NCBI GenBank assembly: GCA_029098265.1
Contig: JAQXNZ010000008.1
Coordinates: 1-41,014 of the forward strand
DNA length: 41,014 nucleotides
Source: Clostridia bacterium
GTDB lineage: Bacteria; Bacillota; Clostridia; Lachnospirales; Anaerotignaceae
Direction of reading: 5' to 3'
The notes below the pieces were generated by a model. That model saw nothing but the letters and a program-made list of their open reading frames with translations. It was not told the DNA's origin and made no database searches. Below are positions 488 through 39,905 of the stretch, one piece after another. The translations under genes were made by a program, and so were the position numbers. Position 1 is the stretch's first letter; each line of letters starts with the position of its first letter.

Positions 488-493
488 AAAGAG

Positions 494-845
494 TGGAGCT
501 GAGGAGAATCGAACTCCTGTCCGAAAACCCATCGGCAAAGACTTCTCCCATCACAGACTATCTTTTGAAATTCCCATCACGAGCCGCCGACAGTCAGGCT
601 GTCCGATCCGGTAGCTTCATCAATCTTTTTCCGCCGCAAAGCTTAGGCGGAAAAGGTCCTCACAAAGTCGACGCCGGTTACCGGAACTGTGAGCAATTCC
701 GGGCCGACGAGCCGCACTTAGGCAGCTACTAATTCTGTATTGTTGTCGTTTCTTTTTAAAAGGTTACGGCCTTGATACGCAGTTGACCGATGCTGCGGAT
801 GGCTATCTCAGCTTTCAAGACTCCCGTCGAAACCATTACAGCCCC
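494..845 (-). ncRNA. ssrA: tmRNA (ssrA), proteolysis tag DNNTELVAA
   Basis: tmRNA rescues stalled ribosomes by acting as alanyl-tRNA and then as a short message. The 5' end GGGGCTGTAATGGTTTCGAC pairs with the 3' end CAGCTCC-A to form the acceptor stem, and a T-loop (GTTCGATTC) lies near the 3' end. The CCA is not encoded: the discriminator A is followed by CTC. The tag frame reads GAC AAC AAT ACA GAA TTA GTA GCT GCC TAA (747-718), giving A-DNNTELVAA once the tRNA-borne Ala is added. GAC as resume codon is inferred from the AAAAAGAAAC context just before it. The smpB stop codon is only 12 bases upstream, so smpB and ssrA are probably co-transcribed. Confidence 0.97.
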
Positions 846-9717: not shown

Positions 9718-9819
9718 TAGCTTTAATGAGATATATGTTTTACTTCACTTATCATTATTAACTAAGTTTTTTACAGCCCTTTTATAAATCACGATTTGCT
9801 GTATATTTAAATTTAACTT

Positions 9820-9896
9820 CCCGAAAAACGTATGTTTTTCTAAAGTTTAAGTCAAGCCTTTTCAAAGGCTTGCGGAGTTTGAGGCAGAGCCTCAAG
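9820..9896 (+). repeat. Hairpin repeat of the second family, copy 1
   Basis: Three short stem-loops in a row: CCGAAAAAC/GTTTTTC, AAGCCTTT/AAAGGCTT and TTGAGGC/GCCTCAA, joined by TAAAGTTTAAGTC and GCGGAG. The same ordered set, nearly identical in sequence, occurs on the opposite strand at 20360-20440. Here it lies just downstream of proC. No coding potential is seen. Confidence 0.75.
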
Positions 9897-12549: not shown

Positions 12550-12593
12550 AATATGTATGGAACAGATGAATGTGATTGAAAGGAAGAAAATCT

Positions 12594-13970
12594 ATGCTCC
12601 ACAAGTTTTCCATGAACGGCATAAACGTTCTTATGGATATTTACAGCGGTGCAGTACACGCCGTTGATGAAGTTGCCTATGAGATAGCTGACCTTTATCC
12701 CGAAACAGGCGTCGGGGAACTCTGCGAAAAATTCAGCGGCAGATTTACAGAGGAACAGATAAAAGAGGCCGTTGACGAGCTGGAGGAGCTCAGACAGGCC
12801 GATATGCTCTATACAGAGGACGAGTACGAGGGTGTTCTTGAACAGGTAAAGAACCGTGCGCCCGTTGTAAAGGCTCTCTGTCTGCATGTTGCCCATGACT
12901 GCAATCTTAAGTGCAGATACTGCTTTGCCGAGGAAGGAGAATACCACGGAAAACGCTCGCTTATGAGCACAGAGGTAGGAAAAAAGGCCATTGACTTTAT
13001 TATTGCCAACAGCGGCAACAGAAGAAACCTTGAGGTAGACTTTTTCGGCGGCGAACCTCTTATGAATTTTGACGTTGTAAAGGATATAGTCGAGTACGGA
13101 CGTGAACAGGAAAAGCTCCACAATAAGAATTTCAGGTTTACGGTGACAACCAACGGCGTTCTCCTTGACGATGAAAAACAGGAATATATCAATAAAAATA
13201 TGCATAACGTCGTACTCAGTATTGACGGCAGAAAAGAAATAAACGACTTTATGCGTCCCAGAGCCGGCGGACAGGGAAGCTATGACCTTATTGTTCCCAA
13301 ATTCCAAAAGCTTGCCGAGAGCAGACACCAGACGGATTATTATGTAAGGGGAACATTTACCCATTATAATCTTGACTTCTCTAAGGACGTGCTTCACTTT
13401 GCCGATGACCTGGGCTTCAAGCAGGTTTCCGTTGAACCCGTTGTTGCGGAGGCAACCGAGGATTACGCAATCAGAGAGGAAGACCTCGACACAATCTATA
13501 ATGAGTATGAGAAGCTTGCCGAGGAGCTTTACATAAGACATAAAACAGGCGAGAAGGACTTCAACTTCTTCCACTTTATGATTGACCTTACGGGCGGCCC
13601 CTGTGTTGCAAAGCGTCTTTCGGGCTGCGGAAGCGGCACAGAGTATCTTGCCGTTACTCCCGAGGGTGACCTCTATCCCTGCCACCAGTTTGTAGGCGAG
13701 GAGGAATATAAGATAGGCTCCGTATTCACAGGTATTGAAAATACTGAAATAAGAGAAAAGTTTGCCAACTGCAACGTATATACAAAGCCCGACTGCAAAA
13801 AGTGCTGGGCCAAGTTCTACTGCAGCGGCGGCTGTATGGCAAATGCCAGCCATTATGCAGGCGACATAAGCGGCACATACGAGCTGGGCTGTAAGCTCCA
13901 GAGAAAGAGAATAGAGTGCGCCATAATGATTAAGGCCAAGCTTATGTTGGACGAGCTTGAAAATGAATAA
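12594..13970 (+). CDS. scfB: SCIFF radical SAM maturase
   Basis: This SPASM-type radical SAM enzyme installs a thioether cross-link in the SCIFF peptide. An N-terminal RiPP recognition domain (about residues 1-85) starts MLHKFSMNGINVLMDIYSGA, as usual in the family. The radical SAM motif CNLKCRYC is at residues 103-110, followed by FFGGEPL. The C-terminal SPASM region holds two auxiliary cluster sets: CGSGTEYLAVTPEGDLYPC, CNVYTKPDCKKC, FYCSGGC and a last Cys in LGCKLQ. I start at ATG 12594 (458 aa), which fits the family start; an upstream in-frame TTG at 12576 overlaps the ribosome site. A terminator hairpin follows at 13981. Confidence 0.96.
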   Translation: MLHKFSMNGINVLMDIYSGAVHAVDEVAYEIADLYPETGVGELCEKFSGRFTEEQIKEAVDELEELRQADMLYTEDEYEGVLEQVKNRAPVVKALCLHVAHDCNLKCRYCFAEEGEYHGKRSLMSTEVGKKAIDFIIANSGNRRNLEVDFFGGEPLMNFDVVKDIVEYGREQEKLHNKNFRFTVTTNGVLLDDEKQEYINKNMHNVVLSIDGRKEINDFMRPRAGGQGSYDLIVPKFQKLAESRHQTDYYVRGTFTHYNLDFSKDVLHFADDLGFKQVSVEPVVAEATEDYAIREEDLDTIYNEYEKLAEELYIRHKTGEKDFNFFHFMIDLTGGPCVAKRLSGCGSGTEYLAVTPEGDLYPCHQFVGEEEYKIGSVFTGIENTEIREKFANCNVYTKPDCKKCWAKFYCSGGCMANASHYAGDISGTYELGCKLQRKRIECAIMIKAKLMLDELENE

Positions 13971-13980
13971 ACTATATACT

Positions 13981-14267
13981 AAGCCCCGTTTGAAAAAACG
14001 GGGCTTCAGACTGTAGACAAAACCAATTAATGATTTGAAATTATTCTGTATTAGCCGAGATAACCAGGAAAGGTTCGGAAAACCCGGAAGGTTTTCTGAG
14101 GCTTTAAACCGAGTCGGAGACCGCGCTCTTCGGCTCGGGGAAGTCCTTAGACACAAGCCGTGCGCAGTGTCAGGACTTCATACATTAATTTAAACAAGTC
14201 GAAAACTTGTTTTCGACTTAGTGTCGACTTTGTCGACACTCTCAGTCCCGTTTTTTCAAACGGGGCT
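13981..14267 (+). repeat. Structured intergenic element, copy B, with duplicated terminator hairpin
   Basis: Left hairpin 13981-14006 (arms AAGCCCCGTTT and AAACGGGGCTT) is the maturase terminator, but CAGAC, not a T-tract, follows it. Then come TGTAGACAAA (14012), stem-loops of about 200 bases, the invariant arm AAGTCGAAAAC, GTGTCGACTTTGTCGACAC (14221-14239), and a second hairpin, 14244-14267, with the same stem (one C changed to T, pairing kept) followed by TTTTTT. Copy A has the same arrangement with a different hairpin. No coding potential is seen. Confidence 0.8.
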
Positions 14268-14273
14268 TTTTTC

Positions 14274-14666: not shown

Positions 14667-15557
14667 TCAGGCAATTGACAGGGATACATCATCGATGAGA
14701 ATATTCTGATTGCCCTCGGCGTCAGCGGATATTTCTACTGTTATAGCTGTCAGTCCTGCCGGAGCGGCAGATGAAAGAATTCTGTAATAGCCGAAGCTTC
14801 TGTTGCTGTTGGGTGTATCGAGTCTGCTGACGTTAATTTCAGCGCCTGTGGTTGTTCCCGAGGCTGTGACAAACAAAAGCTTTGCGGTAAAGCCTGCGTT
14901 TGCGCCCTCGCTTCTTGCAAAGAATGAAAGCTCATAATAGCAGCCGCCGCTGACCTTTGCGGTTGTCTGCCGTATGGCCGATTTATCCTTTATGCTTACC
15001 GATGCCTGACCGGAATGTACACGGCCCTGCTGACTTACGGAGGCTACTCCGTCCGGATTTACGAATGTCCATGAAGCGGGCTTTCCGCCGGTTATGTTCT
15101 CCATATCGCCGTTTGTCAGAAGCTCTCCTCTTGATTTGCATTCACATTCACAAATTCCGGGAGGACCCTGCTCTCCGGTGTCGCCTTTATCACCCTTATC
15201 ACCCTTGTCACCTTTATCGCCCTTGTCACCTTTATCGCCCTTGTCACCTTTATCGCCCTTGTCACCTTTATCGCCCTTGTCACCTTTATCGCCCTTGTCA
15301 CCTTTATCTCCTTTTTCACCCTGTTCTCCGGTGTCACCTTTATCTCCTTTTTCGCCTTGTTCTCCGGTGTCACCTTTGTCGCCTTTGTCACCCTTGTCGC
15401 CTTTTTCACCCTTAGGACCTCTGCAGCATTCGCAGCAGTCGTCCTCGTGGGGCTCCCAAGGACAGCAAAGCTCATTATCGCATTCGTCTGTGTCTCTGTC
15501 TGCGCACCTGCAGCGGGCTCTGTTTCTTCGCTCATAATAGTCATAGTCGTTATACAT
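14667..15557 (-). CDS. Collagen-like surface protein with Cys-rich head and C-terminal beta domain
   Basis: Residues 1-46 are acidic and hold nine cysteines, including [15 protein letters not shown]. Residues 47-133 are 29 unbroken Gly-X-Y triplets, mostly GDK, GEK and GDT, able to form a triple helix. CECEC follows, then a domain of about 155 residues starting LLTNGDMEN and ending [10 protein letters not shown], typical of jelly-roll carbohydrate-binding-like domains (NTTRR-F1 type). There is no signal peptide, as in Bcl-type exosporium proteins, so a spore or cell-surface role is likely but inferred. I start at ATG 15557 (296 aa), which has GAGAGG nine bases upstream; the longer frame to 15638 lacks a start signal. 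The YmaF-like gene follows it. Confidence 0.85.
15181..15420. repeat. Tandem DNA repeat coding for the collagen-like triplets
   Basis: Nine-base units coding for GDK, GEK or GDT are repeated without break. Within 15181-15310 they alternate as an 18-base higher-order unit (TCGCCCTTGTCACCTTTA on the plus strand) repeated about five times. Such an exact array can gain or lose units by slippage, changing the length of the collagen helix in whole triplets. Confidence 0.9.
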
Positions 15558-15701
15558 ACACTTTGTCCTCTCTTTTTTATTACATGATATTCCATTTGGA
15601 TAAGCTTTGTTACAATGAAGAAAAATCACCTTGCCCAATATGCTTTTGTTTGCTAAAATATTTGATGTGTTTTTAAAATAAATTAATCAGGGAGAAACGA
15701 G

Positions 15702-18779: not shown

Positions 18780-19065
18780 AAAAAACCTCTTATCCTAAAC
18801 AAATAGGACAAGAGGTATATCTCCTGCGGTGCCACCTAAATTCACCTGTACAAAAAAATACAGATGCTCCTCAAACTGCATACTATCATATGCGCTCCGC
18901 TGTAACGTGCGGACTTCCGTCTCACCTACTGACCAATGCTTTCGGTTTGCCCTCATAAGTCCATTCATCAATCCGTCATTGCCATGCTCTCAGCCCGCAT
19001 AGCTCTCTGTGAAATGATTGGGAGTGATTACTACTCTTAATCGTTGGTTTATTCTGTAAAAGTTA
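18780..19065 (-). promoter_or_regulatory. Trp-specific T-box riboswitch upstream of trpB2
   Basis: On the minus strand the conserved parts are visible in order: a stem I base with the AGAGAG motif, the specifier region GATGAATGGACTTATGAG, the T-box itself (TTTAGGTGGCACCGCAGG, 18840-18823), and a terminator with arms CCTCTTGTCCTA and TAGGATAAGAGG followed by TTTTTTT (about 18816-18780). The codon after GAA in the specifier loop is TGG (18963-18961), reading tRNA-Trp. Uncharged tRNA-Trp would stabilise the antiterminator and turn trpB2 on. Confidence 0.95.
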
Positions 19066-20359: not shown

Positions 20360-20713
20360 TTGAGGCTCTGCCTCAAACTCCGCAAGCCTTTGAAAAGGCT
20401 TGACCTAAACTTTAAACCGAAAAACATACGTTTTTCGGGGAGGCTAATTTCAAATATGTTAAGCCTCAAATACTTGGCATAGGAAAAACGAAGTTTTTCC
20501 ATAAAAGTTTTGGGGAGTTTAAGAGGGGACTTTTCCAAAAGTCCTCTCTTTATTTTCACATACAACAGTAAACCCCGACGAAATTACTTCCGTCGGGGTC
20601 AATAAACTGCGAATAAACCACTCTAAAATCAAAAGTTTCCGTGGGAACTTTTGATTTTAGTTCCGTAACAAGTTGAAATCCCCAAAGGATTTCAACTTAG
20701 CGGCTCTGCCGCT
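20360..20713. repeat. Run of about nine hairpins, including copy 2 of the second repeat family
   Basis: In plus order the stems are: TTGAGGC/GCCTCAA, AAGCCTTT/AAAGGCTT, CCGAAAAAC/GTTTTTCGG (20417-20438), AGGCTAA/TTAAGCCT, GGAAAAAC/GTTTTTCC (20482-20500), AAGAGGGGACTTTT/AAAAGTCCTCTCTT (20521-20550, then TATTTT), ACCCCGACG/CGTCGGGGT (20572-20599), CTAAAATCAAAAGTT/AACTTTTGATTTTAG (20623-20660), AAGTTGAAATCC/GGATTTCAACTT (20670-20698), and AGCGGC/GCCGCT (20699-20713). The first three repeat the block at 9820-9896 in reverse. The last hairpin contains the stop codon of the flippase gene. Short frames in this stretch do not look coding. Confidence 0.8.
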
Positions 20714-24334: not shown

Positions 24335-24366
24335 TTAAAACAAGTCGAAAACCTGTTTTCGACTTA
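24335..24366. repeat. Fragment of the first structured repeat family (copy E)
   Basis: TTAAAACAAG, then the invariant hairpin with arms AAGTCGAAAAC and GTTTTCGACTT, then A. This is identical to the end part of copy C (39871-39905), and both lack the GTGTCGAC palindrome. The rest of the element is missing. It lies just beyond the csp terminator. Confidence 0.75.
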
Positions 24367-29488: not shown

Positions 29489-29894
29489 ATTTATACCCCC
29501 AATCTAAAAAACACGCAATAATATATTGGTATCTCTTGACAGAAAATTTTTACAACCCAACCTTAAACTCTTATTCAAGAATCAGCATTTGATTGTAGAA
29601 TTCATAAAACATGAATATCTTTGGGCAAAAATAATTCTAGAATTTTAGCATAAATCATATTGTTACTAAAATCAAGGATTATAATGAAATTATATTTATT
29701 AGGATAAGATATAGTGGCTCAAAGACTATTATAAGACCAATTACATCTTCTATTGCACTCTTTATAAATGCCTGATAATACTATAGGTTTAAATCAAATC
29801 CAACGACACAAATTACTCCAGTTCAATTTAATAATATTAGGGATTCATTATTTTTTGAAAATTAATATAAACAATTTGAAAACTTTTTTAGTAC
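29489..29894. other. AT-rich gap upstream of the DUF262 gene
   Basis: This stretch should hold the promoter of the DUF262 gene, but no box pair stands out. There is no convincing ORF and no repeat until 29895. Its composition is like that of the DUF262 gene. Confidence 0.4.
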
Positions 29895-29970
29895 CGCAAA
29901 GATGTGCGGACGCGAAGCGGTTTTGCTTTAGCAAAATACTGACTTTACTTAGTGTCGACTTTGTCGACAC
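29895..29970 (+). repeat. Fragment of the first structured repeat family (copy D)
   Basis: The right end TTAGTGTCGACTTTGTCGAC (29949-29968, then AC) is identical to copies A and B. In front of it lie two hairpins not found in them, CCGCA/TGCGG and TTTTGC/GCAAAA. It abuts the terminator hairpin of the gene at 30032-30241 at a distance of five bases. Confidence 0.65.
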
Positions 29971-39600: not shown

Positions 39601-39905
39601 AAAGCCGAAGAAAATTAATTCTCCGGCTTTAAGCTGTATACAAACCCAATTAAATATTTGAAATTATTCAGTAATAGCCAAAACAACCGGGAAAGGTTCG
39701 GAAAACCAGGAAGGTTTTCTGAAGCTTTAAACCGTCGGCGGAATTCATTTCCGCTGACGGAGAAGTCCGAATACACAAGCTGTGCGCAGTGTAATGTGCA
39801 AACCGCGTGAAAGTCGCGGCGCCGTAGGCGTTCCCGTAGGGAATTTGAGAACCTGCCAGACTTCATGCATTAATTTAAACAAGTCGAAAACCTGTTTTCG
39901 ACTTA
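39601..39905 (+). repeat. Structured intergenic element, copy C, with one flanking hairpin
   Basis: The left hairpin (39601-39630, arms AAAGCCG/CGGCTTT) is followed by TGTATACAAA (39635), the block GGAAAGGTTCGGAAAACC, a stem CCGTCGGCGGAA/TTTCCGCTGACGG, a long stem GAAGTC/GACTTC with three extra hairpins inside (CCGCG/CGCGG, GCC/GGC, TTCCC/GGGAA), and the invariant arm AAGTCGAAAAC. It ends there, without the GTGTCGAC palindrome and without a second terminator copy. It fills the whole gap between mobA and luxS. Seen from luxS it lies downstream in reverse orientation. Confidence 0.78.

Follow-up and report, generated by a model that had tools for sequence, protein, structure and literature searches.

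What kind of element comes to lie between two copies of its host gene's terminator, and how is the second copy made? The question is raised by two loci, copies A and B, in the window, by which we mean the whole 41,014-nucleotide stretch of a Clostridia contig analysed here (Table 1). An initial annotation had proposed that the element inserted into a terminator and thereby duplicated more than 20 bases; this is supported by the present analysis and can be refined, in that the duplicated unit is the whole stem-loop, from foot to foot. We consider it highly probable that the elements are MITEs mobilised in trans by a DDE transposase of the IS1182 family, which would target stem-loops and duplicate the entire hairpin.

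Table 1. Elements, flanking stem-loops and host gene in the window
Feature	Position	Strand	Basis
Left copy of host terminator stem-loop, copy A (ATAGCCTCGGATTTTCCGAGGCTT)	6613-6590	-	Sequence reading
MITE copy A, second subtype, with TCCGCAGG..CGCCGAGGAG hairpin	6589-6370	-	Sequence reading, alignment
Right copy of host stem-loop with T-tract, copy A	6369-6339	-	Sequence reading
Host gene of copy B, SCIFF-maturase-like radical SAM protein	12576-13970	+	Name from sequence resemblance only
Left copy of host terminator stem-loop without T-tract, copy B (AAGCCCCGTTTGAAAAAACGGGGCTT)	13981-14006	+	Sequence reading
MITE copy B: left end CAGACTGTAGACAAA, several internal hairpins, right end TGTCGACTTTGTCGACACTCTC	14007-14243	+	Sequence reading
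Right copy of host stem-loop with T-tract, copy B; loop inverted relative to left copy	14244-14272	+	Repeat comparison, terminator scan
Lone right-end hairpin fragment	24335-24366	+	
Right end of decayed MITE, nested hairpin module upstream	29953-29969	+	
Decayed MITE copy C; left hairpin and body kept, right terminal hairpin and right duplication missing; adjoins luxS-like gene	39604-39905	+	

For copy A, the second stem-loop reads ATAGTCTTGGATTTTCCGAGGCTT (6369-6346), is followed by ATTTTTT, and forms a direct 24-bp duplication with the first, with 2 differences. For copy B, the sequence from 14244 onwards reads AGTCCCGTTTTTTCAAACGGGGCTTTTTT, with AGTCCCGTTTTTTCAAACGGGGCT as the stem-loop part, followed by TTTTT. 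The first stem-loops of both copies are devoid of a T-run, and a strong T-tract is found only at the second; in a consensus scan, a plus-strand terminator was called at the second stem-loop of copy B (14244) and none at the first (13981). Sequence and terminator scan alike confirm what had first been described, namely that A and B lie between two copies of the host terminator stem with the T-tract only at the second. Orthologues of the copy B host gene are present in 56 of 58 genomes of the family.

That the two flanking copies represent the same stem holds for copy A as a direct repeat; in copy B, the second stem-loop has an inverted loop. It differs from the first at 2 of 26 positions when compared as reverse complement and at 6 of 26 as a direct repeat, so its loop is flipped relative to the first, and the pair was listed as inverted in the repeat search. 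This state is found in a minority of the copies in the window's own genome, with B, L036 and L054 as the clear cases scoring better inverted than direct, and would be explained by a later flip of a palindrome, i.e. a secondary event. The start AGTC of both second copies, initially read as a shared change, is taken as a coincidence, with right stem-loops of other copies in the genome starting AAAA, AAGG, TAGC and so on.

The window elements belong to a population of short, protein-less copies of jumping DNA, of which there are about 60 in the genome of the window (G000; 2.14 Mb, 197 contigs). A DNA search with the element yielded 77 matches there, and 63 occurrences of the right-end palindrome TGTCGACTTTGTCGACA were counted, versus 0 for a reversed control. 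Copies were read from about 90 loci, and their number is approximate and uncertain, with many contigs ending inside a copy. For 40 distinct copies with both flanks, direct stem-loop duplication was scored against all mismatched pairings of left and right flanks, whose 99th percentile was 10.0; 25 copies exceeded this value, with 0.4 expected, and thus the paired terminators to be looked for at other copies are indeed found there. Identical duplicated stem-loops of 29 bp were obtained at L050 and L040, and of 30 bp at L044.

The duplicated hairpins are a target site duplication and not part of the element. They abut the terminal inverted repeats CAGACTGTAGACAAA(G), mostly flush with CAG on the left, and start 2-5 bases past TGTCGACA on the right. 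In the duplicated copies, right stem-loops are more stable than left ones (mean -15.6 vs -12.7 kcal/mol; Wilcoxon p 0.013 for all copies), consistent with decay of one copy, and to decay we tentatively also attribute the missing duplications in the 14-15 of 40 own-genome copies in which none was recognisable.

Several further repeats were noted alongside these copies. In many of them (window 29851-29969, L031, L032, L042, L137, L148), a hairpin module CCGCAAAGATGTGCGGACGCGAAGCGGTTTTGCTTTAGCAAAATACTGACTATA is located inside the AAGTCGAAAACCTGTTTTCGACTT stem of the element, as a nested repeat that also landed in a hairpin. A second repeat family, unrelated to the element, is present at 9806-9895 and 20360-20453 of the window, with 55-nt arms that are 98% complementary and form a hairpin CAAGCCTTT..AAAGGCTTG. 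The open reading frame at 14667-15638 on the minus strand contains a long collagen-like GXX tandem repeat with a 9-bp period.

Beyond this genome, the same ends and duplicated terminators were found in the congener G003, elsewhere in the family in other genera, and among MAGs of rumen Clostridia. A scan of named genomes gave 0 exact matches for the long right end of G000, and 54 loci in Anaerotignum and rumen Clostridia for a shorter palindrome; in viral contigs, 2 matches were obtained, both in unrelated-looking context, with no element seen. Across genomes, 22 of 29 MITE pairs, three of them own-genome re-reads, had flanking duplications, with a median length of 26.5 bp and a range of 20-37 bp. 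In genus g17 (L111-L129), solitary GGGTGTCGACTTTGTCGACACCC palindromes are located by gene ends with the rest of the element absent; these are perhaps minimal or decayed copies.

For both window loci, related sites devoid of the element were expected to show one hairpin plus T-tract, and this is what is seen in G002, after the orthologue of the copy B host gene as well as after that of the gene near copy A; as the G002 terminators differ in sequence from their G000 counterparts, these are empty sites at the level of the locus, not of the base. In G001, an independent insertion of a related element, in opposite orientation, is present at the copy A gene; it is flanked on either side by the exact duplication GAGGGTACCTGTTACAGGTACCCTT, of which the outer copy bears the T-tract. 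The copy B gene there also carries an insertion of this kind, with degenerate hairpins on both sides.

For identification of an autonomous partner, CAGNNTGTMGACAAAG was searched in 392 genomes of the order, with matches in 67 of them, including inward-facing pairs 1.6 kb apart. The elements L244 (1649 bp), L245 (1648 bp) and L246 (1610 bp) each contain one long open reading frame, and their 16-bp ends are identical at the two termini. The proteins of L243, L244 and L246 match the IS1182 transposase model NF033551 (E 1e-138 to 1e-141), with scores of 461-470 bits against a cut-off of 270, and the transposases of these 1.6-kb elements comprise the Pfam domains DUF772 and DDE_Tnp_1_6. All three elements are flanked by exact stem-loop duplications, of 35 bp in L244 (AAGACTGTGCCTTCTAAAAAAGAGGGCACAGTCTT), 22 bp in L245 (AAGAGACCATTTATGGTCTCTT) and 28 bp in L246 (ACATATCCGGTCAATAAACCGGATATGT).

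In an independent NF033551 search of the family, the closed genome G071 was found to contain 11 IS1182 copies with ends CAGACTGTCAAARAA, whose transposases are 52-54% identical to those of the 1.6-kb elements. Duplications of 20-35 bp are present at 10 of the 11 copies (9 distinct sites, two loci sharing one flank), and these are complete stem-loops, folding over their entire length or very nearly. With a single open reading frame between matching inverted-repeat ends and lengths of 1610-1649 bp and 1483-1484 bp, the elements are within the size range of the IS1182 family, which is about 1.3-2 kb.

The end of copy B, CAGACTGTAGACAAAA, is identical to the insertion sequence end CAGACTGTAGACAAAG at 15 of 16 positions, and the window elements and the autonomous insertion sequences have the same kind of target site duplication; on these sequence comparisons, the 1.6-kb elements are likely the autonomous partner of the window elements. 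Beyond the ends, comparison by eye revealed no evident shared sequence between MITEs and 1.6-kb insertion sequences. A MITE usually, though not necessarily, shares its genome with an autonomous source. NF033551 matches are present in G071 and G006, both of the same family, and no IS1182 transposase was detected with this model in G000, whose draft assembly of 197 contigs is 95% complete, or in its three congeners G001, G002 and G003. For this reason we infer, rather than observe, the enzyme mobilising the window copies, which may have disappeared from the genome, escaped detection in the draft or been acquired only transiently.

The ends also bear on an origin from an IS30-family element of the IS1630 type, which would have made the duplications and given rise to the MITEs. 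The motif TGTAGA, which occurs in IS30 ends too, is present in these MITE ends. The title of its original report presents IS1630 as targeting and duplicating inverted repeats, and duplications of 16-26 bp are reported for it (PMC3317919). Still, the window's own genome yielded no IS30 transposase, these MITE ends are absent from the IS30 elements that the family was found to contain, and the 16-bp ends belong to IS1182-family elements, so that this origin is largely refuted and we regard it as extremely improbable.

The duplicated sites argue against an account devoid of recent transposition, in which local slippage around an old intergenic repeat, or selection there for double terminators, would have produced the paired terminators. 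Palindromes are indeed prone to rearrangement, and copy B shows an inverted loop; however, across several genera the same ends directly adjoin duplicated hairpins, dozens in all and unrelated to each other, and this is seen at insertion sequences of 1.5-1.65 kb as well; moreover, single-hairpin sites exist in G002. The precision of the boundaries across genomes already contradicts this account, which we consider hardly tenable.

For the favoured IS1182-type transposition, we infer the following order of events. The IS1182-family DDE transposase would act in trans on the non-autonomous MITE, whose ends are CAGACTGTAGACAAA(G) and its imperfect inverse. The target would be a stem-loop, probably extruded as a DNA cruciform and typically a rho-independent terminator, to which the transposon would be joined by its two 3' ends, each at the 5' foot of the hairpin on one of the two strands. 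The entire hairpin would then be copied in the course of gap repair, such that the length of the duplication (about 20-37 bp) would equal that of the hairpin. Afterwards, one hairpin would remain a terminator beside its own T-tract, and the other would decay.

The interior of the element folds strongly (z -9 to -10), and an alignment of 13 copies yielded a multi-hairpin consensus with compensatory double changes in 9 of 60 pairs, mostly in one variable hairpin. Such changes could result from selection on RNA or DNA structure, or from palindrome-templated correction. Nested hairpin modules are present within many copies, and interiors vary by lineage, with motifs such as TCCGCAGG..GAGGAG common to different genera. 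In the congener G003, L082, L083 and L087 contain AGTCATGACTTTYGC...GGTCAATAG-type modules within internal hairpins, as if tips had been swapped or invaded.

Strong folding and compensatory stem changes would also be expected if the element were a structured RNA, or an RNA-guided element or retroelement (group IIC intron, bridge-RNA or TPRT type) homing to terminators, and group IIC introns likewise insert beside terminator hairpins. An Rfam scan of the window, however, returned a tmRNA gene (491-845, minus strand) and a T-box leader (18801-19053, minus strand) only, with nothing matching the element and no intron RNA. None of the loci read showed a reverse transcriptase or an IS110 gene, and the inverted-repeat ends and long, foot-to-foot flanking duplications are shared with the DDE insertion sequences described above and set the elements apart from group IIC introns; we thus judge such an RNA-based or retroelement origin very unlikely. 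In addition to being part of a MITE, the conserved interior has a small chance of acting as a functional structured RNA or a bidirectional terminator or insulator, that is, a ready-made 3' UTR moved between gene ends.

With respect to transcription, the element had been proposed to form a 3' extension of the host mRNA. For A and B this fits, as the element comes downstream of a host gene of the same orientation and the first hairpin has no T-tract, which makes read-through into the element and a stop at the second hairpin plausible. It is not general, since 23 of the 30 copies mapped have a right-hand gene pointing towards the element, and this gene often lies within 33-66 bases of it (rough orientation from codon-scored open reading frames). 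Many right stem-loops keep an A-run, the T-tract for a facing right-hand gene, and transcripts of such genes should therefore end before the element. At L268 (G003:C4, about 234819), the reversed right end of the element directly adjoins the maturase gene and provides its TAA stop codon.

Of known systems, IS1272 of Staphylococcus is alike in its IS1182-family transposase and in its stem-loop targets, which are often terminators and without sequence consensus (PMC5678879, PMC4923244). The segments duplicated here, which fold foot to foot, are likewise inverted repeats or terminators; in contrast, IS1272 replaces or deletes the stem-loop without duplication, whereas here the whole stem-loop is duplicated, and the window elements are non-autonomous. 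For IS1272, the stem-loop was proposed to be deleted when the ends join a cruciform at its 3' feet, and joining at the 5' feet, drawn as hypothetical pathway b, would duplicate it (Wan et al., 2017; PMC5678879); TnSha1/IS1272 was described to target terminators with deletion and without duplication (Furi et al., 2016; PMC4923244).

IS1630, an IS30-family element of Mycoplasma fermentans, is autonomous and unlike the present elements in transposase family and ends. Its inverted repeats derive from terminators, and we know of no MITE swarm for it. Going by the title of the original report, it is a precedent for duplicated inverted repeats (Calcutt et al., 1999, via PMC3317919). With bacterial MITEs (reviewed in PMC10969869), the window elements share small size, absence of coding sequence, inverted-repeat ends, intergenic location, richness in hairpins and decaying flank duplications; they differ from MITEs in general in their stem-loop target and in a duplication of 20-37 bp set by hairpin length. 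In the open literature, with most subscription journals outside the search, no paper was found that brings together IS1182, MITEs and duplicated terminators. ISfinder lists very variable duplications for IS1182 members, and specialists may not be wholly surprised.

Transposases usually give a duplication of fixed length; here, in dozens of natural cases, the target duplication of a DDE transposon is a complete stem-loop of variable length, and it appears to be the shape of the target that fixes how far apart the two joining events occur. The duplication outcome, previously drawn only as a hypothetical alternative, is thereby realised within the IS1182 family and can be compared directly with the replacement by IS1272. 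The transposon would aim at DNA shape rather than sequence and leave the gene with a working stop signal, and because a working terminator remains, this suggests how hundreds of bases may insert at gene ends at little cost.
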